Below are positions 24,150 through 33,842 of a stretch of DNA of 64,000 bases, piece by piece. Each line of letters begins with the position of its first letter. The first letter of the stretch is position 1. A program made the translations under genes and the position numbers. The stretch is from Henriciella sp. (lineage in GTDB: Bacteria > Pseudomonadota > Alphaproteobacteria > Caulobacterales > Hyphomonadaceae): the NCBI GenBank assembly GCA_013214545.1, contig JABSQB010000004.1, forward strand, positions 1-64,000, read 5' to 3'. Under the pieces are notes generated by a model. It saw only the letters and a list, made by a program, of their open reading frames with translations. It ran no database searches and was not told the DNA's origin.

Positions 24150-25079
24150 TTATGAGCGTTTCGCCGTTAAACGCCGGCACAATTCGTCCAATTGTTCGAG
24201 ATCGCCATACTTGATCCGAAGCTCACCGCCTTTGGCGCCTTGGCGAATATCAACTTTCAAGCCGAGCACACGCGCCAGGTCACTCTCGAGCGCTTCAGTA
24301 TCAACGTCCTTGTCGATCGCATTGACCTTGCTCGCGACCGTATCGAGCGCGTTGCCATCTTTCAGGCGCTTCACCAGCGCTTCAACTTCGCGCACCGACA
24401 TAGATTTCGCGACCGCCATGTCGACCACTGGATCAGGATCCGGCGCGCCGAGCGCGGCACGAGCGTGACCCGCAGAAATCCGGCCTTGGCGCAAATGCTC
24501 CCGCGCCGTCTCGCCGAGATTGAGAAGACGCAAAGTGTTGGCGATATGCGCCCGCGATTTGCCGACGCTTTCGGCAAGGTTTTCTTGCGTCCTCCCAAAT
24601 CGCTTGATCAGCGCGCCATAGGCTTCGGCCTCTTCAATTGGATTGAGATCTTCGCGTTGGACGTTCTCGATGATGCCGACTTCGAGAAGTTGTAACTCGT
24701 CCATATCGCGAACGATGGCCGGAATGGTTTTCAGGCCCGCCCGCTGCGCCGCCCGCCAACGCCGTTCGCCGGCAACAATCTGATATTTATTTGGCGCATC
24801 CGGATCCGGTCGCAGGATGATCGCTTGCAAAACGCCTCGTTGTTTGATCGAGGTCGCAAGTTCATCGAGTTCTTGTTCGGAAAAAGTCCGCCGGGGCTGG
24901 GCCGGGTTCGGACGGATGTCCGCGATCTGATATTCATCGACCGGCGATCCACCCGAAGTCGTCGAAGACGGTGACGCAGACGAGGAATCTTCCGGGGTCG
25001 CAAGGCCGACCCCTTCAACCTCTCCGATCAGAGCCGACAGCCCTTTTCCAAGACGGCTTTGTTTAGCGGGAGGGGTCAT
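24150..25079 (-). CDS. parB: Chromosome partitioning protein ParB
   Basis: 309-aa CTP-dependent DNA clamp that loads at parS and spreads, organising the origin. N-terminus KQSRLGKGLSALIGEV is the ParA-stimulating segment. The CTP-binding domain includes IRPNPAQPRRTF, GERRWRAAQRAG (C-motif region, about residues 104-115) and ENVQREDLNPIEEA. The helix-turn-helix is ENLAESVGKSRAHIANTLRLL. The C-terminal dimerisation domain ends LDELCRRL. A Ser/Thr-rich linker separates residues 30-45. ATG start is 3 bases after the parA stop; cotranscribed with parA. Three perfect cognate sites lie 1.4-3.7 kb upstream in this operon. Confidence 0.97.
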   Translation of the reverse strand: MTPPAKQSRLGKGLSALIGEVEGVGLATPEDSSSASPSSTTSGGSPVDEYQIADIRPNPAQPRRTFSEQELDELATSIKQRGVLQAIILRPDPDAPNKYQIVAGERRWRAAQRAGLKTIPAIVRDMDELQLLEVGIIENVQREDLNPIEEAEAYGALIKRFGRTQENLAESVGKSRAHIANTLRLLNLGETAREHLRQGRISAGHARAALGAPDPDPVVDMAVAKSMSVREVEALVKRLKDGNALDTVASKVNAIDKDVDTEALESDLARVLGLKVDIRQGAKGGELRIKYGDLEQLDELCRRLTAKRS

Positions 25080-25082
25080 AGA

Positions 25083-25895
25083 CTATCCTCGCAGCGCGCG
25101 TTCGCGCTTCAACATTTCAGACGCCAGGCGGATGTACGCCTCGCTGCCGGGGCAACGATAATCATAAAGCAAAGCCGGTTTGCCGAAGCTTGGCGCTTCC
25201 GACAGACGCACGTTTCGCGGGATCACGGTATTGTAGACTTTCGCGCCGAGGACAGAGCGCACCTCATCGGCGACCTGGTCGGACAGGTTGTTGCGGCGAT
25301 CATACATGGTCAGCACCACGCCCTGAATATCGAGATCCGGATTGAGACCGCTGCGGACCAACTCGACGGTTTTCAAAAGCTGGCTCAGACCTTCAAGCGC
25401 GAGGAATTCACACTGCAAAGGCACCAATAAGGAGTCGGCCGCCGTCATCGCGTTGATCGTGAGGGCCGAAAGCGAAGGCGGGCAATCGATCAGGATATAG
25501 TCATACTCAGTCAGGCCTCGGCCACCGGCCTCTTCGACATATTTGCGAAGCGCGTTGCGCAAACGGTAGGACCGATGCGGGTCGGTCGAAAGCTCAGTTT
25601 CCACACCGGCGAGGTTCTCATCACCCGGGACGATATCGAGGCGCGGGACGAGCGTGTTCAAAACCGCATCGCCGAGAAATTCGTTGTGGACAACCACATC
25701 ATAGGTCGTCAGCTGACGCTCTGGGCGGGTAATTCCGAGTCCGGTTGAGGCATTTCCCTGCGCATCGAAATCGATGACAAGGACTTTTCGGCCGACCGCG
25801 GCGAGCGCGGTTCCGAGATTGATTGAGGTGGTCGTCTTCCCGACACCGCCTTTCTGATTGGCGATCGCGAGTATGCGTGTGTTAGCGTTCGACAC
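25083..25895 (-). CDS. parA: Chromosome partitioning ATPase ParA
   Basis: 270-aa Walker-type ATPase that moves ParB-parS complexes. Deviant Walker A is KGGVGKTTT (residues 15-23). Walker A' is VIDFDAQGNASTGLG and Walker B is YDYILIDCPPSLSALT. Starts with GTG at 25895 ([14 protein letters not shown]), overlapping the 3' end of rsmG by 14 bases. Its start codon lies inside a partial parS match (cacgtgaaac). Short, chromosomal (Soj-type) ParA without the N-terminal HTH found in plasmid type Ia proteins. Confidence 0.97.
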   Translation of the reverse strand: MSNANTRILAIANQKGGVGKTTTSINLGTALAAVGRKVLVIDFDAQGNASTGLGITRPERQLTTYDVVVHNEFLGDAVLNTLVPRLDIVPGDENLAGVETELSTDPHRSYRLRNALRKYVEEAGGRGLTEYDYILIDCPPSLSALTINAMTAADSLLVPLQCEFLALEGLSQLLKTVELVRSGLNPDLDIQGVVLTMYDRRNNLSDQVADEVRSVLGAKVYNTVIPRNVRLSEAPSFGKPALLYDYRCPGSEAYIRLASEMLKRERALRG

Positions 25896-26514
25896 GTGAA
25901 ACCTCCGAGATTTTCAAAACAGCCCCATCCCCGCTCACGCTGGGAATCGCTTCATAGGCGAATCTCCAAGATTCCAAGGCATCCGTCAATTCCTCTTCCC
26001 AGCGTCTTCCTTTCGGAATCACCCCATAAGCGCCCTGGGCGAACCAGGGCTCGGCATATTCGATTAATTTCGGCAACGGCGCGAAGGCGCGCGCCGTTAT
26101 ACAATCGGCATGAACGGGCTTAATCGCTTCAACCCGACCCTGGATGACTTTTGCGGGTAAATCGGCCGCCTGAATGGCCGCGCGAAGGAAGGCGCATTTC
26201 TTTCCGACACTCTCCACCAAGGAGAATCTCGCGTCAGGGTCAGAGGCGCATGCCGCCAGGATCAAAGCCGGAAATCCAGACCCGGATCCAAGATCGATCG
26301 TATGTCCCGTGGCCGGAATATGCGGCTGAAGCTGAATCGAATCGAGGACGTGCCGGCGCCAGACGCGGCCAAATTCTGCCGGACCAATCAGATTGGTTTT
26401 GCGGCGCCAGCCATCGAGCTCGCCAACAATGATCTGAAGTCGGTCGAGTGTTTCACGTGAAACATCGACATAGTCCTTCAGGTCGTCTGGGCCGAACCCA
26501 TCCTCGTCACGCAT
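25882..26514 (-). CDS. rsmG: 16S rRNA (guanine-N7)-methyltransferase RsmG
   Basis: 210-aa SAM methyltransferase for G527 of 16S rRNA (loss gives streptomycin resistance in other bacteria). The ATG at 26514 is preferred over 26550 because the longer form intrudes 44 bases into mnmG. Motifs: [22 protein letters not shown], then [18 protein letters not shown] (SAM site, about residues 76-93). Contains a perfect parS site near its 5' end, which reads VSRETL in the protein. It overlaps mnmG by 8 bases and parA by 14 bases. Confidence 0.95.
26449..26464. promoter_or_regulatory. parS: parS site 1 (in rsmG)
   Basis: tgtttcacgtgaaaca, a perfect 16-bp palindromic parS, the ParB loading site. It lies in the 5' part of rsmG and encodes VSRETL. 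Confidence 0.95.
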
Positions 26515-28387
26515 TCGCGGTTCGCTTTCGATTTGGGCGGCGGCGAACATAAGCGAGCAGCGCCGTCAGAGCGCCGGGGGTCATACCCTCGATCCGACCG
26601 GCCTGCCCCAAAGTCGCAGGCCGGATCAGTTCGAGTTTCGCGCGCACCTCATTGGTCAGACCGCCAACCGCCGCATAATCGAGATCGCCAGGGAGCTCCA
26701 AAGCCTCTTCGCGGCGAAGCGCTTCGACATCATCTTTCTGCCGCTCAATGTATCCGGCGTACATGGCTTCGATCTCGAGTTGGGATTTGATCGCCTGATC
26801 TAGCGCCGCCACCTCCGGGAATGCGGATTCAACATCCATCATCGTGATGCTCGGATAGGCGAGATAATCCCAGGCGCTTCGACGCTGGCCATCCTGATTG
26901 ACTTTCCATCCCAGTTTCTGGGCTTCGTTCGGAGTCATTGCGACCGATTGCATGACCGCTCGCCCGGATTTCAGCGCATCTTGTTTCACGTGAAACACAT
27001 CGGCGCGCTCCGGACCGACCAGTCCGAGATCGATCCCGCGTACCGTCAGGCGCTGATCGGCATTGTCCGATCGAAGCGACAGCCGGTATTCGGCCCGCGA
27101 CGTAAACATGCGATACGGTTCGGTGACCCCGCGGGTGACCAGATCATCTATCAAAACACCGATGTAAGCTTCGGCCCGATCAAAAAGCGCATTCGCTTCA
27201 CCGCGGCCAAAGCGCACCGCATTCAATCCAGCGACCAGGCCTTGTGCGCCCGCTTCTTCATATCCCGTGGTGCCATTGATCTGTCCGGCGAGGAAAAGTC
27301 CGGGAAGCGCTTTCACCTGAAGTCCGGAATCCAAAGCGCGCGGATCGACATAATCATATTCGATCGCATAGCCGTATTCGAGGATCTCGACCTTCTCGAG
27401 CCCTTCGATCTTGCGGATAAATTCGTCCTGAACCTCGCGCGGCAAAGATGTTGCGATGCCATTTGGGTAGACGGTTGGATCGTCCAAGCCTTCTGGTTCG
27501 AGGAAGATTTGATGGCGCGTCTTCTCGGCGAAGCGATGGATCTTGTCTTCAATCGACGGACAATAGCGAGGGCCGCGTCCGGCAATGGCACCGGAATAGA
27601 CCGCCGACTGTTTGAGATTGTCCGCAATAGTCTCGTGCGTATCAGTATTGGTGAACGTGATGCCACATGAAACCTGCGGGACTTCGATCTGGTCCGTCAG
27701 ATAAGAGAATGGGATTGGCGCCTCATCCGCGGGTTGCATTTCCAGACGATCCCAATCGATCGTCTCACCATTAAGGCGCGCGGGCGTCCCGGTTTTCAAT
27801 CGCCCCATCGGCAAATCGAGCGCGTAAAGCCGGTCCGACAAACCGATTGCTGGTTTCTCGCCAACCCGGCCGGCAGGAATTCGCTCGGCGCCGCGATGGA
27901 TGATGCCTTTAAGAAAAGTGCCGGTGGTGATGACCACAGCTTTTGCGGCATAGGCGTTTCCGGACTCGCCAATCACGCCGGCGACTTTCTTATCTTCGAC
28001 GATCAGATCTTCGACGCCGTCTTGGATCACGGTCAGATTGGCATGATGGAGGATCTCTTCCTGCATCGCCTCGCGATAGAGTTTTCGATCAATCTGCGCG
28101 CGCGGCCCCCAAACCGCAGGGCCTTTGGACCGGTTGAGCATCCGAAACTGGATGCCGGAGCGATCCGCAACCCGGCCCATCAATCCGTCGAGCGCGTCGA
28201 TCTCGCGAACCAAATGCCCCTTGCCCAATCCGCCAATCGCCGGATTGCAGGACATTTCCCCGATGGTTGAAATCTTGTGCGTGATCAGCGCCGTGCGCGC
28301 ACCCGTCCGCGCTGCCGCAGATGCCGCCTCGCATCCGGCATGGCCGCCGCCAACCACAATCACATCGAAATTCAAATCGTCTTGCAT
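26507..28387 (-). CDS. mnmG: tRNA U34 carboxymethylaminomethyl synthase subunit MnmG
   Basis: FAD-binding partner of MnmE that installs the cmnm5 group on U34 of certain tRNAs. The ATG at 28387 ([15 protein letters not shown]) is chosen; 626 aa. FAD site [19 protein letters not shown] (residues 9-27). The GidA signature [16 protein letters not shown] follows, then the catalytic-cysteine region CGITFTNT and the C-terminal MnmE-binding helices ([32 protein letters not shown]). Carries a parS site in codons reading VFHVKQ. Lies in mnmE-mnmG-rsmG order, with a 54-base gap from mnmE. Confidence 0.97.
26982..26997. promoter_or_regulatory. parS: parS site 2 (in mnmG)
   Basis: Second perfect tgtttcacgtgaaaca, 533 bases from site 1, in the 3' half of mnmG. 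It reads VFHVKQ in the protein. Confidence 0.95.
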
Positions 28388-28441: not shown

Positions 28442-29764
28442 CTATTTGCCGATACAGAAGGAAGAAAACACAGCGCCGAGCACCGACTCCGGATCAACAT
28501 GGCCCGTGAGGGTTCCGAGTTCGCGGCTCGCCAAACGCACATCTTCGGATACAAACTCGGCGCCGATTCCACTTTCGAGATGTCCGAGCGCGGACTCGAG
28601 ATGGCTCAGCGCGCGTTCAATCCCCTGGCGATGTCGGGCCCGAGTGATGATTGGTGCGCTGACATTTTGGGTGAGCGAACCCAGTCGCTCAATAATTGCT
28701 GCCTCGACTTTGTCGATCCCGGATCCATCTTTCGCGGTAATACTGAGTGTTTCACGTGAAACACTTTCTGGGTCCACCAGGTCTGACTTGTTGGAAATTA
28801 TCAGATCCCCGGGACGGACCTGGTCAGACTGGAAACTCTCGCGCGCGTCATAGAGCCAGATCCGGATGTCGGAGTCTTCGGCGGCTTTCAAAGCCCGGCG
28901 AACGCCCTCCGCCTCGACGACATCTTGGGTCTCGCGGAGTCCAGCCGTGTCAGATACCCAGACCAAATAACCGCCCATTGTAAGTCTGACTTCTACCACG
29001 TCCCGGGTCGTACCTGGTATGTCGGTGACGATCGCCGCTTCACGCCTGGCAAGTTGATTGAGGAGGGTGGATTTCCCAGCATTCGGCTTTCCCAGGATCG
29101 CGACTTTGAAGCCATCGCGGATCCGCTCGGTGATATTGCCATCGGCAAGCGCCTGAATGAGATCAGATTTGAGGACCCCAAGTTTTTCGCGAACCGGCGC
29201 ATCGACCCGTTCCGGTGCATCCTCTTCATCGGGAAAGTCGATGCTTGCCTCAAGGAGGGCCAAAGCCTCCGTCAGATCCTCGCGCCAACCCGAATAGAGA
29301 GTCTCCAGCGCGCCATCCATCTGCTTCAGCGCTTGTCCGAGTTGCGCCTCGCTTTCCGCATCGATCAAATCGGCAACCGCTTCCGCGCGGGTGAGATCGA
29401 GCTTGCCAGCTTCGAAGGCGCGGCGGGTGAATTCGCCAGGCTCTGCGATCCGGGCGCCCGCTGACATGATCGACTTGAGCGCGAGCTCGGTGATCATCCG
29501 GCCGCCATGCAGGGTGATTTCGAGTGTGTCTTCGCCGGTATAGCTCGCCGGCCCCGGCATAAAGATGGCGAGACCTGAATCGATCAGGTCTCCGTCCTCG
29601 GAATGAAGGTCCACGAGGGTTGCGTGGCGGGGCTTCAGCTTGGCGACTGAAAGCCTGCGTTCTGTAATATCTATTACAGCTGGACCAGACATCCGGATGA
29701 CGGAAATCGCCGCGGGTGGCAGGCCGCTCGCCAGAGCACAGATCGTGTCCCGGCGGATGGCCAT
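28442..29764 (-). CDS. mnmE: tRNA modification GTPase MnmE
   Basis: GTPase partner of MnmG, 440 aa. N-terminal folate-binding domain (TICALASGLPPAAISVIRMSG; TGEDTLEITLHGG). A helical domain follows, then the G domain with AILGKPNAGKSTLLN (G1, about residues 218-232), DIPGTTRDVVE (G2), DTAGLRET (G3) and ISNKSDL (G4). It ends in FCIGK, the invariant C-terminal cysteine motif. Contains the third parS inside the G-domain region, as VSRETL. Starts 2 bases after the rho stop, so they are cotranscribed. Confidence 0.97.
   Translation of the reverse strand: MAIRRDTICALASGLPPAAISVIRMSGPAVIDITERRLSVAKLKPRHATLVDLHSEDGDLIDSGLAIFMPGPASYTGEDTLEITLHGGRMITELALKSIMSAGARIAEPGEFTRRAFEAGKLDLTRAEAVADLIDAESEAQLGQALKQMDGALETLYSGWREDLTEALALLEASIDFPDEEDAPERVDAPVREKLGVLKSDLIQALADGNITERIRDGFKVAILGKPNAGKSTLLNQLARREAAIVTDIPGTTRDVVEVRLTMGGYLVWVSDTAGLRETQDVVEAEGVRRALKAAEDSDIRIWLYDARESFQSDQVRPGDLIISNKSDLVDPESVSRETLSITAKDGSGIDKVEAAIIERLGSLTQNVSAPIITRARHRQGIERALSHLESALGHLESGIGAEFVSEDVRLASRELGTLTGHVDPESVLGAVFSSFCIGK
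28748..28763. promoter_or_regulatory. parS: parS site 3 (in mnmE)
   Basis: Third perfect tgtttcacgtgaaaca, 1766 bases from site 2 and about 4 kb from the putative oriC. Encodes VSRETL within the MnmE GTPase domain. Confidence 0.95.
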
Positions 29765-31623: not shown

Positions 31624-32667
31624 CTAAGTCGCCCCCTCGCGCACCAGTTCGACCACCCGCTCGACATGCGCAATCGGAGTTTCCGGTCGGACACCATGCC
31701 CGAGATTAAATATGTGTGGTCGCCCGGAATAGGCTTGCAACAGTTCTCGCACGCGCGCGTCCATGGCGTCGCCACCTGCGATGAGAAGCAAGGGATCGAG
31801 ATGACCTTGCACCGCCATCGTATTCGGTACAGCCCCGGCGACATGTGCCGGGTTTATTGCTGTATCGAGGCCAACGCCATTGACTGCCACTTGTGACGTA
31901 TACGCTTCGAGCATGGTCGCTGCTCCGCGAGGAAATCCAATGATTGGCACGGTTATGTCCATCTCGCGCAATCGATTGACCAAGCGTGCGTTTGGCTCAA
32001 CCACCAATGATTGGAATAGATCAGATGGCAGGCCTTCGGCCCAGGATTCGAAAATCATCAAAGCATCGGCGCCGGCTTTGACTTGTTCCGACAGATATTG
32101 AGCGCTCGCCTCGATCAGCAGATCCAGGAGCTTATTCATCAGGTCTGCATTGGTGTAAGCCCAGCTTCGCGCCGTGCTCTTATCGGTGCCACCTCGACCT
32201 TCAATTGCGTAAAGCGCAACCGTCCAGGGCGCGCCGCAAAATCCGATCAGCGCTTTATTACTATCTAGCTTAGACCGCACCCGGTCGACGGTTTCATAGA
32301 CAGGGGACAGGCGTTGAACCGCCTTTTCCATAGGCACCCGGTTGAGATCGCTCTCATCATTCACAGTTTCGACGATAGGTCCCACGCCCTTTTCGAACCG
32401 AACATCTAGACCAATGGCATCCAAGATCAGCAATATGTCAGCGAAAAGGATGGCGGCATCCATGTCATATCGCCGGATCGGTTGAAGCGTTGCTTCAGCT
32501 GCCATTGAGGGAGAATAGCAAAAATCGAGAAAGTCTTTCGCCTGGGCTCTCAGCTCCAGATATTCAGGCAGATGCCGCCCGGCTTGTCGCATCATCCAGA
32601 TGGGAACTGGGGACGAAGGGGTGCCAGAAAGAACTTGTAGAAAACGTGACGAAGGAGTCTCAGCCAT
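31624..32667 (-). CDS. hemE: Uroporphyrinogen decarboxylase
   Basis: 347-aa cytosolic enzyme turning uroporphyrinogen III into coproporphyrinogen III. The ATG at 32667 (MAETPSSRFLQVL) is chosen over a TTG at 32685. Signatures: PIWMMRQAGRHLPEYLELR (URO-D signature 1), AAILFADILLILDAIGLDVRFEKGVGP (catalytic Asp region), GFCGAPWTVALYAIEGRG (signature 2) and NLGHGVRPETP. First gene leftward from the putative origin; hemE beside oriC is the known Caulobacter arrangement. Confidence 0.97.
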   Translation of the reverse strand: MAETPSSRFLQVLSGTPSSPVPIWMMRQAGRHLPEYLELRAQAKDFLDFCYSPSMAAEATLQPIRRYDMDAAILFADILLILDAIGLDVRFEKGVGPIVETVNDESDLNRVPMEKAVQRLSPVYETVDRVRSKLDSNKALIGFCGAPWTVALYAIEGRGGTDKSTARSWAYTNADLMNKLLDLLIEASAQYLSEQVKAGADALMIFESWAEGLPSDLFQSLVVEPNARLVNRLREMDITVPIIGFPRGAATMLEAYTSQVAVNGVGLDTAINPAHVAGAVPNTMAVQGHLDPLLLIAGGDAMDARVRELLQAYSGRPHIFNLGHGVRPETPIAHVERVVELVREGAT

Positions 32668-32789
32668 AAGAAATTTCAAACCCAAAACCTAATTCGAGAC
32701 GACTTATCATTATTAAGGCAGGAGTCTCGTGGAAAACATCAGATGAGGTCATTTGTCCCTATAAATTCCACAGCCTGTCCCCAGCTCTG

Positions 32790-32845
32790 TGCAAAGTTAA
32801 CGCTTTATTAACGGACTGAAAAAATTGTAAATAATTGGTTAACCA
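32790..32845. other. AT-rich candidate unwinding element
   Basis: The AT-richest part of the putative oriC, containing TTAACGCTTTATTAA and an A-run followed by ttgtaaataattggttaa. It overlaps both CtrA-type boxes, so a bound regulator could block opening. Confidence 0.6.
32797..32811. promoter_or_regulatory. CtrA box in oriC
   Basis: ttaa-cgcttta-ttaa is a perfect TTAA-N7-TTAA, the full consensus for the cell-cycle response regulator CtrA, which silences oriC in Caulobacter. Confidence 0.75.
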
Positions 32846-32853
32846 AGGGTTGA
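32839..32853. promoter_or_regulatory. Second, one-mismatch CtrA box in oriC
   Basis: ttaa-ccaaggg-ttga matches TTAA-N7-TTAA at seven of eight fixed positions and lies 42 bases (four helical turns) from the first box. Confidence 0.55.
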
Positions 32854-32883
32854 AACGGATGTCTGGAACAGGCTGGAAACGAC

Positions 32884-32926
32884 CAGAGTCAGATTCGTTC
32901 ACTTGTGCGATTCAGAGTCGGATTCG
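32884..32926. repeat. Two 14-mer direct repeats packed with GANTC sites
   Basis: cagagtcagattcg (32884-32897) and cagagtcggattcg (32913-32926) differ at one base and start 29 bases apart. With the bases between them they give five GANTC sites (32886, 32892, 32909, 32915, 32921), the target of the CcrM cell-cycle methyltransferase. Confidence 0.75.
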
Positions 32927-32939
32927 GATCACAAACCAC

Positions 32940-32959
32940 CTATCCACAATTCATCCACA
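32940..32959 (+). promoter_or_regulatory. Tandem DnaA-like boxes
   Basis: ctatccaca (32940-32948) and tcatccaca (32951-32959) each match the DnaA consensus TTATCCACA at eight of nine positions. They start 11 bases apart, on the same face of the helix. The second also resembles the Caulobacter weak 'G-box' (TGATCCACA). Confidence 0.7.
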
Positions 32960-33011
32960 GGGCTTGTCGAATTCATGTCCTTCCGGCACAGGACATGTGA
33001 ATTAAATCAGG

Positions 33012-33842
33012 ATGATCATGCGGCTCTCTATCTATTTCAATGTGCATCTGGTCTCTGACTCGACGGGCGAGACTCTGAATGCGGTGATGCGGGCGGCAGC
33101 TGCGCAATTCGATCGAACGATTCCGCTTGAACACAATTACTATCTGGTCAGGTCTGAGCGGCAGCTCGATCGTGTCATGGCCGAGATTGAAGCGGCTCCC
33201 GGTGTGGTCTGGTACACGATCTCGGACGACAATTTACGGCGGAAGCTGGAGCAGTTTTGCGGTCAGCGCGGGATCCAGACTCTGCCCGTGCTTGATCCGT
33301 CTATCCATATGCTGTCGCGCCATCTCGGGATTGCCGCGAGCGAAAAGATAGCCAGCCAGCACGCCCTGAACGAAGACTATTTCAAACGCATTTCGGCCAT
33401 CGATTTCGCCCTCAACCATGATGATGGCCAGAACGTCACCGGATTGGTCGATGCAGACGTAGTCTTGTTAGGCGTGAGCCGGACATCAAAAACACCGACT
33501 TGTGTCTATCTCGCCAATCGCGGCGTCAAAGCCGGAAACATTCCACTGGTCCCCGGAATTCCATTGCCGGGCCTGGTTGAGGAATTGAAACATCCCATGG
33601 TGGTCGGATTAAAGATCGGTGTGGAACGATTGCTTCAAATTCGCAGCCAGCGATTGATGTCGCTGAATGAGCAAACGAAAACCGACTATGTCGATGAAGA
33701 AGCAGTCCGCGCGGAAGTGACGGAAGCCAGCCGTCTGTTCCAGCGTAATAAGTGGCCCGTCATCGACGTCTCTCGCCGCAGTGTTGAAGAAACAGCTGCC
33801 GCGATTCTGAACAAGTTGAATGAACGCCGGGGCTTTGTCTGA
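33012..33842 (+). CDS. ppsR: PEP synthase/pyruvate phosphate dikinase regulatory protein (DUF299)
   Basis: 276-aa bifunctional ADP-dependent kinase and Pi-dependent phosphorylase that switches PEP synthase or PPDK off and on. Motifs: FNVHLVSDSTGETLNAVMRAA at the N-terminus, LDPSIHMLSRHLG, and the P-loop-like GVSRTSKTPT (residues 154-163). ANRGVKAGNIPLVPGI and RAEVTEASRLFQRNKWPVIDVSRRSVEETAA close the protein. First gene rightward of the putative origin, orthologous to the Caulobacter gene flanking oriC. Whether the target here is PPDK or PpsA cannot be told from the window. Its last base is the first base of maf. Confidence 0.93.
   Translation: MIMRLSIYFNVHLVSDSTGETLNAVMRAAAAQFDRTIPLEHNYYLVRSERQLDRVMAEIEAAPGVVWYTISDDNLRRKLEQFCGQRGIQTLPVLDPSIHMLSRHLGIAASEKIASQHALNEDYFKRISAIDFALNHDDGQNVTGLVDADVVLLGVSRTSKTPTCVYLANRGVKAGNIPLVPGIPLPGLVEELKHPMVVGLKIGVERLLQIRSQRLMSLNEQTKTDYVDEEAVRAEVTEASRLFQRNKWPVIDVSRRSVEETAAAILNKLNERRGFV

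Follow-up and report, generated by a model that had tools for sequence, protein, structure and literature searches.

A highly probable Caulobacter-type replication origin in a Henriciella-type genome carries an array of GANTC (CcrM) sites

The non-coding gap between hemE and ppsR in a 64-kb stretch of DNA (hereafter the window; part of contig C73 of genome G000, whose assembly comprises 3.57 Mb in 138 contigs) is almost certainly the Caulobacter-type chromosomal oriC of a marine bacterium of the Henriciella type, and five GANTC (CcrM) sites are packed into 40 bp of it, between the CtrA boxes and the DnaA boxes. The origin itself is ordinary and expected, extending the Caulobacter layout to Henriciella. 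Its loading with GANTC is less expected and is the part worth following: the loading is real, conserved within several genera and uneven between genera. The best explanation of the gap as a whole, which we hold to be very likely correct, is an oriC with CtrA boxes and a CcrM-site array that may serve as a mark of an origin that has already fired.

Results

Position of the origin

The original prediction had placed the chromosome origin in a non-coding gap whose flanking genes point away from it, and this is the arrangement found, the gap being enclosed by a minus-strand hemE and a plus-strand ppsR (Table 1). The ATG of hemE lies at 32665-32667 on the minus strand; for ppsR, the alignment of the genus indicates that the true start may be, and likely is, the ATG at 33018. 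The gap measures 344 bp between the flanking genes as listed, and 368 bp under the rule applied to all gaps in this study. Of the 99 matched genomes of the family, G031 and G054 (contig starts) were left out and G070, which we take to be H. neptunium, was added; 96 family loci were examined, with L089 lost to a contig end. A divergent hemE adjoins ppsR in 95 of the 96 fetched loci and in G070, that is, in 96 of 97. Of 59 loci from four further families of the order, 56 show the hemE pattern inside the kilobase that was fetched; three loci without the hemE pattern and six without the ppsR pattern were dropped, and 50 were used. The hemE/COG1806 arrangement is reported as a known origin layout of Caulobacter and Rickettsia (PMC1914354).

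Because our assembly is in 138 contigs, GC skew was followed in G038, a member of the same genus whose chromosome is a single contig and whose ppsR is 96% identical to that of the window. Twenty 20-kb samples gave 11 positive values (from 3.06 Mb round to 1.26 Mb), 8 negative ones (1.44 to 2.70 Mb) and one near zero (0.0027, at 2.88 Mb). With 16 further stretches filling 2.72-3.06 Mb, the cumulative skew (10-kb steps, 2.70-3.08 Mb) has its minimum at 2.910 Mb (-2339), about 4 kb from the start of ppsR at 2.9139 Mb; the value at 2.890 Mb is nearly equal (-2323), which puts the resolution at some tens of kb. The skew check proposed with the original prediction thus places the minimum beside ppsR in G038, whereas our own 144-kb contig has several shallow minima, none of them clear. 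The skew pattern of G070 is not clean, and skew inside the 64-kb window is too noisy for placing an origin. For H. neptunium, GC skew and other markers were likewise reported as unclear, and marker frequency was used, with a peak close to hemE (PMC6650430).

The gap could also be no origin, merely a promoter region between two conserved divergent genes: the motifs are by themselves short, and the hemE/ppsR adjacency could have another cause. We regard this as very improbable in view of the skew minimum beside ppsR in G038, of three perfect parS sites at 3.9-6.2 kb from the gap with parAB beyond them at 6.8-8.5 kb, and of the marker frequency and CtrA ChIP data from H. neptunium (PMC6650430, PMC7200025). 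With the synteny added, the same observations support the gap as the chromosome origin, and as far as sequence permits the predicted origin can be taken as confirmed.

Table 1 Features of the putative origin region and its surroundings (positions in the window; strand given where it applies)
Feature	Position	Strand	Remark
oriC (almost certain), non-coding gap hemE/ppsR	32668..33011		divergent flanks, synteny, G038 skew minimum
hemE (uroporphyrinogen decarboxylase), flank	31624..32667	-	PF01208 361 bits; TIGR01464 379 bits
ppsR (Kinase-PPPase, COG1806), flank	33012..33842	+	PF03618 301 bits; NF003742 320 bits
Further single GANTC in gap	32722..32726		letter match
TTCCACA, DnaA-type half-box	32766..32772	+	kept in most of genus
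TCCCCA, Caulobacter W-box-like	32778..32783	+	letter match
Least stable 60 bp of gap, possible unwinding element	32793..32852		overlaps CtrA boxes
Exact CtrA box TTAA-N7-TTAA, TTAACGCTTTATTAA	32797..32811		sole exact copy in 64 kb
One-mismatch CtrA box	32828..32842		exact in many congeneric relatives
One-mismatch CtrA-like box	32839..32853		overlaps box at 32828..32842
Array of five GANTC (CcrM) sites	32886..32925		starts 32886, 32892, 32909, 32915, 32921
TGTG, reverse DnaA-type half-box inside array	32904..32907		in at least 90% of genus gaps (alignment consensus)
GANTC triplet, 6-bp spacing, 17 bp, GANTCNGANTCNGANTC	32909..32925		sole place in 3.57-Mb genome
DnaA box CTATCCACA	32940..32948	+	one mismatch from TTATCCACA
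DnaA box TCATCCACA	32951..32959	+	one mismatch from TTATCCACA; 11 bp downstream of first box
Perfect parS in mnmE	28748..28763		exact match
Perfect parS in mnmG/gidA	26982..26997		exact match
Perfect parS in gidB	26449..26464		exact match
parA	25083..25895	-	PF13614
parB	24150..25079	-	PF02195, PF17762, PF23552

CtrA boxes, DnaA boxes and unwinding region

The CtrA box and the one-mismatch box named in the original prediction were both recovered, the first exact at 32797 and the second at 32828, and a further one-mismatch box was found at 32839. TTAA-N7-TTAA is expected 0.11 times in 64 kb (at least one in 11 of 100 shuffles), and at least one exact box arises in 31 of 5000 dinucleotide shuffles of the gap. 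Exact boxes are present in 73 of 95 family gaps (0.01 per gap expected); when up to one mismatch is allowed, 92 of 96 family gaps and 39 of the 50 gaps from other families have a box. The genome codes for a CtrA ortholog (NF045991, 414 bits, cut-off 350), and ChIP-seq of CtrA in H. neptunium is reported to show binding at a site beside ori (PMC7200025). In Caulobacter, lowering the binding of CtrA at all five origin sites is reported to perturb the replication programme only mildly (PMC4468827). As to the prediction that CtrA control of initiation is conserved here, the boxes, the ortholog and the ChIP data from a relative are in its favour; on this basis CtrA probably controls initiation at the gap.

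The tandem DnaA-like boxes, said to lie on one helical face, are borne out by two ATCCACA cores starting at 32942 and 32953, whose 11-bp distance places them on the same face of the helix; two or more ATCCACA occur in 15 of 5000 dinucleotide shuffles of the gap. The exact Caulobacter G-box, whose letters we take to be TGATCCACA with GATCCACA as its core, was not found in the gap, the nearest match being TCATCCACA at 32951, with one mismatch. The core occurs 0.00 times per gap in both groups of Henriciella (clades A and B, which are a split of the alignment and not of a tree). The W-box letters matched by TCCCCA at 32778 are likewise those we presume for Caulobacter.

The stability of the gap depends on the length considered. 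Only 0.14% of the 60-bp windows across 64 kb are less stable than the one starting at 32793, and the CtrA boxes are also the site of the least stable 30 bp of the gap; over 100 bp, stability is lowest at 32668-32767, on the hemE side. The predicted AT-rich block is present in the gap. The most AT-rich stretches of the window lie elsewhere, at 59-62 kb. For IHF, there is a single one-mismatch match in the gap (32828-32840), one of 18 such matches in the window on both strands.

Positions 399 and 432-435 of DnaA are reported as base contacts (PMC5043019). The DnaA of Henriciella (L255 of G000, L254 of G038 and L252 of G044) has the base-contact signature KKKDHTTV or CKKDHTTV, in place of which the seven other DnaA sequences compared have G-x-R-DHTTV. 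The position of E. coli R399 is K in the five Henriciella and g5 genomes compared and R in the five others. This lysine was considered as a cause of altered boxes and set aside as a weak lead, since chain 3pvp, presumably from M. tuberculosis, also has K in the alignment. In 7 of 10 genomes compared there are also short open frames of 114-155 aa that match DnaA domain IV above the cut-off, the copies in G000 being at C35:13702-13866 and C118:508-672; such frames could compete with DnaA for boxes.

The GANTC array of the window

The five GANTC sites form two groups at 6-bp spacing around the conserved TGTG, and make up the densest GANTC cluster of the window, in which the best 50-bp stretch elsewhere has three. 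Their clustering within 40 bp was reached in none of 5000 shuffles of the gap, while the total count is modest, with six or more sites in 35 of 5000. The sites at 32886-32925 had no part in the reasoning behind the original prediction.

The triplet GANTCNGANTCNGANTC is found in G038 at a single place, homologous to that in the window, and the homologous cluster is the densest GANTC of 720 kb at scales of 45, 100 and 350 bp. Across the genus, GANTCNGANTCNGANTC is present in 10 of 29 genomes and lies at oriC in nine of those, three of which have one extra copy elsewhere; the tenth (G034) has it only elsewhere. A reversed control of the same sequence is present in 5 of the 29.

Two other stretches of the gap are conserved. 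At 32703-32717, close to hemE, the sequence CTTATCATTATTAAG hardly varies within the genus, and a related stretch occupies the equivalent position in g5. The other is GGAACA (32865-32870), immediately upstream of the array, which is kept across the genus and to which GAAC corresponds in g5; no match to any known motif was found for it.

GANTC loading across relatives

The 95 family gaps contain on average 6.62 GANTC sites against 1.80 in shuffles, or 3.7 times the expectation, a statistic which ignores the kinship of the gaps and so overstates the number of independent cases. Within Henriciella (g1), the 12 gaps of clade A have 6.5 sites (1.9 expected) and 2.5 tandem sites (0.017 expected), against 4.3 sites (1.6 expected) and 0.12 tandem sites (0.008 expected) in the 17 gaps of clade B. 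Loading is also strong in g4 (12 gaps, 10.2 vs 2.7 expected), g5 (37 gaps, 8.4 vs 1.7), g6 (3 gaps, 5.0 vs 1.3) and the single gap of g10 (12 vs 3.1). The values are 3.0 vs 1.2 in the single gap of g9 and 4.0 vs 2.5 in that of g7, and there is little excess in g2 (2 gaps, 1.5 vs 1.1), g3 (7 gaps, 1.7 vs 1.5) and g8 (3 gaps, 2.3 vs 1.8). As clade B is almost free of tandem GANTC and g2, g3 and g8 show little excess, an origin of this type can work without an array.

Outside the family, f2, which is probably Caulobacteraceae judging in part from its GATCCACA content, has 2.94 sites against 2.47 expected in 18 gaps (1.2 times); the values are 2.8 vs 1.5 in f3 (19 gaps), 2.9 vs 1.9 in f4 (7 gaps) and 2.7 vs 2.0 in f5 (6 gaps). 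Strong GANTC loading is mostly a trait of the Hyphomonadaceae, and in some genera only. Among the matches listed in a search of the open-access literature, no title dealt with GANTC arrays or GANTC/DnaA composites in the oriC of Hyphomonadaceae.

Composite sites in g5

In g5, which we take to be probably Hyphomonas (37 gaps, 36 of them distinct), ACA comes directly after 156 of the 617 oriented GANTC sites. The resulting sequence, GANTCACA, is a GANTC site fused to a DnaA-type CACA half-box, and every one of the 37 gaps has three to five copies, where 0.069 per gap are expected. Four aligned composite places span about 180 columns from first to last. In whole genomes of g5 (41 examined), GANTCACA occurs 29 to 134 times on both strands, on the whole no more often than its reversed control; in G070, 5 of 38 copies are inside the 368-bp gap. 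The composite was also looked for in the window itself and is absent from it, none of the 156 oriented GANTC sites of clade A being followed by ACA, so that the composite belongs to g5 and not to the window.

At the place of the second DnaA box of the window, which reads CTATCCACAATTCATCCACAGGGCTTGTCG here and CTATCCACAGGCGAGTCACAGGTCTTGTG in G097 of g5 (L093), most g5 gaps read GANTCACA, and GANTC is present there in 32 of 37. The simplest reading of these alignments is that the g5 composites are DnaA-type boxes whose 5' half may have been turned into a CcrM site. On a tree built from the remaining alignment columns, the N of the four GANTCACA sites changed 4, 5, 5 and 5 times and their other letters 0-2 times; background columns average 3.32 changes, and 76 of the 309 are unchanged. 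This pattern suggests selection on the GANTC letters at the composites. Three other conserved GANTC columns of g5, without ACA after them, do not share the pattern: the N changed 4, 0 and 1 times and the other letters 0-3 times. The five-column stretches of g5 with four fixed letters and a free centre are two GANTC and one AANTC.

The same data bear on the alternative that the repeat is the site of another origin-binding protein, or of DnaA, with GANTC incidental and methylation irrelevant. The N letters of the clade A array are nearly constant, as they would be in a fixed protein site, and the g5 columns without CACA do not all have a free N. The N is nevertheless the sole freely varying letter of GANTCACA in g5, which is unexpected for a methylation-blind protein site unless N is uncontacted. 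We regard this alternative as possible but not favoured; in clade A, where the N letters hardly vary, a methylation site and the site of another protein are indistinguishable.

CcrM, GcrA and the possibility of a promoter role

The genome has an open reading frame of 367 aa for a CcrM-type methylase with N6_N4_Mtase and RAMA domains; its best NCBIfam model, NF050803, scores 609 bits, below the cut-off of 830. A lack of CcrM was considered as the cause of the GANTC-poor genera and rejected, since 99 of 101 family genomes have the CcrM-type RAMA domain, and so do 10 of 10 genera. For GcrA the count of family genomes is 96 of 101. In 7 of 12 clade-A genomes there is a second GcrA match, short and interrupted by a stop codon (G000:C85:14738-14926).

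With both proteins present, the gap might be an ordinary Caulobacter-type oriC in which GANTC serves transcription, at a GcrA/CcrM-controlled promoter of ppsR, of hemE or of an origin transcript, and not initiation. Binding of GcrA at methylated GANTC promoters is reported (PMC3667746), the divergent hemE and ppsR need promoters, and two promoter-like matches are found in 32500-33100 (0.6 expected, sd 0.8), both of them, however, outside the array. YGAKTCG, described as the extended motif of GcrA-activated promoters (PMC7987155), is enriched in g4 (1.00 vs 0.32 expected per gap, 10 of 12 gaps) and in g6 (1.00 vs 0.13, 3 of 3 gaps), for which a promoter role is possible. It is, on the other hand, absent from the gap of the window, not enriched in Henriciella (0.17 vs 0.23 in clade A, 0.00 vs 0.17 in clade B) and only slightly more frequent than expected in g5 (0.35 vs 0.18), where the sites moreover run into a DnaA-type CACA at four positions of the alignment. 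The reading of the array in the window as a GcrA promoter was rejected on the absence of YGAKTCG from its gap and the lack of excess in Henriciella gaps, and we consider it unlikely that the GANTC sites in general serve transcription. A promoter and terminator scan gave nothing useful, nor did an RNA family scan, with one match far below the cut-off of its family.

Discussion

Proposed mechanism and role of methylation

From the layout of the gap, initiation would proceed as follows. DnaA would occupy the tandem boxes on the ppsR side, probably together with weaker ones elsewhere in the gap, and would open the unstable DNA, most likely at 32793-32852. Phosphorylated CtrA would bind its boxes in this unstable DNA and block opening in non-replicating cells. 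The CcrM-site array, for its part, would remain hemimethylated for the greater part of S phase and could flag an origin that has already fired. This last expectation is based on Caulobacter, oriC being copied first and CcrM acting late; GANTC near the origin is reported to be hemimethylated in about 80% of Caulobacter cells, with early copying and late CcrM as the cause (PMC3973325).

As judged from sequence comparison, we lean slightly towards the view that the GANTC sites owe their retention at the origin to a role related to methylation; the three g5 columns without ACA and the YGAKTCG counts in g4 and g6 weigh against it. That such a role would consist in direct control of DnaA binding is doubtful. 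Equally tentative, and rather unlikely as it stands, is the broader proposal that in several Hyphomonadaceae genera oriC is under direct CcrM control, with GANTC sites placed within the DnaA boxes or next to them, and with hemimethylation lowering or altering the binding of DnaA until re-methylation. Were it true, a chromosomal oriC of the DnaA/CtrA kind would have a SeqA-like lock that allows one firing per cycle; Hyphomonas would have arrived at it through DnaA-box/CcrM composites, and one group of Henriciella through a tandem array. It would also explain the negative CcrM result of Caulobacter by an origin not loaded with GANTC.

In C. crescentus, replication control is reported to be normal after deletion of ccrM, and several GANTC motifs are reported in the origins of this species and close relatives, the latter with reference to a 2009 comparison (PMC3973325). 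Since the probable Caulobacteraceae origins of our set are hardly enriched in GANTC, the negative result for C. crescentus may not carry over to the Hyphomonadaceae. Relatives of the genome studied here, some of them in cultured genera, have origins in which CcrM sites are about 2.6 to 5 times as numerous as expected, which makes the question of CcrM and initiation directly testable in a more suitable organism than C. crescentus.

Comparison with known systems

The origin shares with the Cori of Caulobacter crescentus, as described in PMC1914354 and PMC4468827, its flanking genes, the TTAA-N7-TTAA CtrA boxes, the DnaA-type boxes and an AT-rich block. It differs by its shorter gap (368 bp in the window and 362-436 bp in the family, against a mean of 544 bp in f2), by having one exact and two one-mismatch CtrA boxes where Cori has five sites, and by the absence of GATCCACA and the presence of the five-site GANTC array. 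If g5 is Hyphomonas, the origin of H. neptunium differs from that of the window in having GANTC joined to DnaA half-boxes (GANTCACA) and not a tandem array. The two share their surroundings, that of H. neptunium being reported near hemE by marker frequency, with parAB and parS nearby (PMC6650430), and with a CtrA ChIP peak beside ori (PMC7200025); the main text of the latter paper nowhere mentions GANTC or methylation.

The repABC origins, including ori2 of Agrobacterium tumefaciens, are also reported to be GANTC-rich (PMC6090056), and for ori2 a hold by hemimethylation has been proposed and likened to SeqA (PMC11514494). That CcrM might control an alphaproteobacterial origin is thus, as a general idea and going by that proposal, already in print. 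Those are, however, RepC-driven origins of plasmids and chromids and not DnaA/CtrA chromosomal oriC, and the binding of RepC in vitro is reported to be independent of methylation (PMC6090056). The likeness to E. coli oriC with Dam and SeqA would be one of working principle only, methylation sites being clustered beside initiator boxes in both, with a different methylase and site (CcrM and GANTC vs Dam and GATC). The Dam/SeqA-like features present here are the enrichment of methylation sites at the origin and the CcrM-type methylase in the genome.
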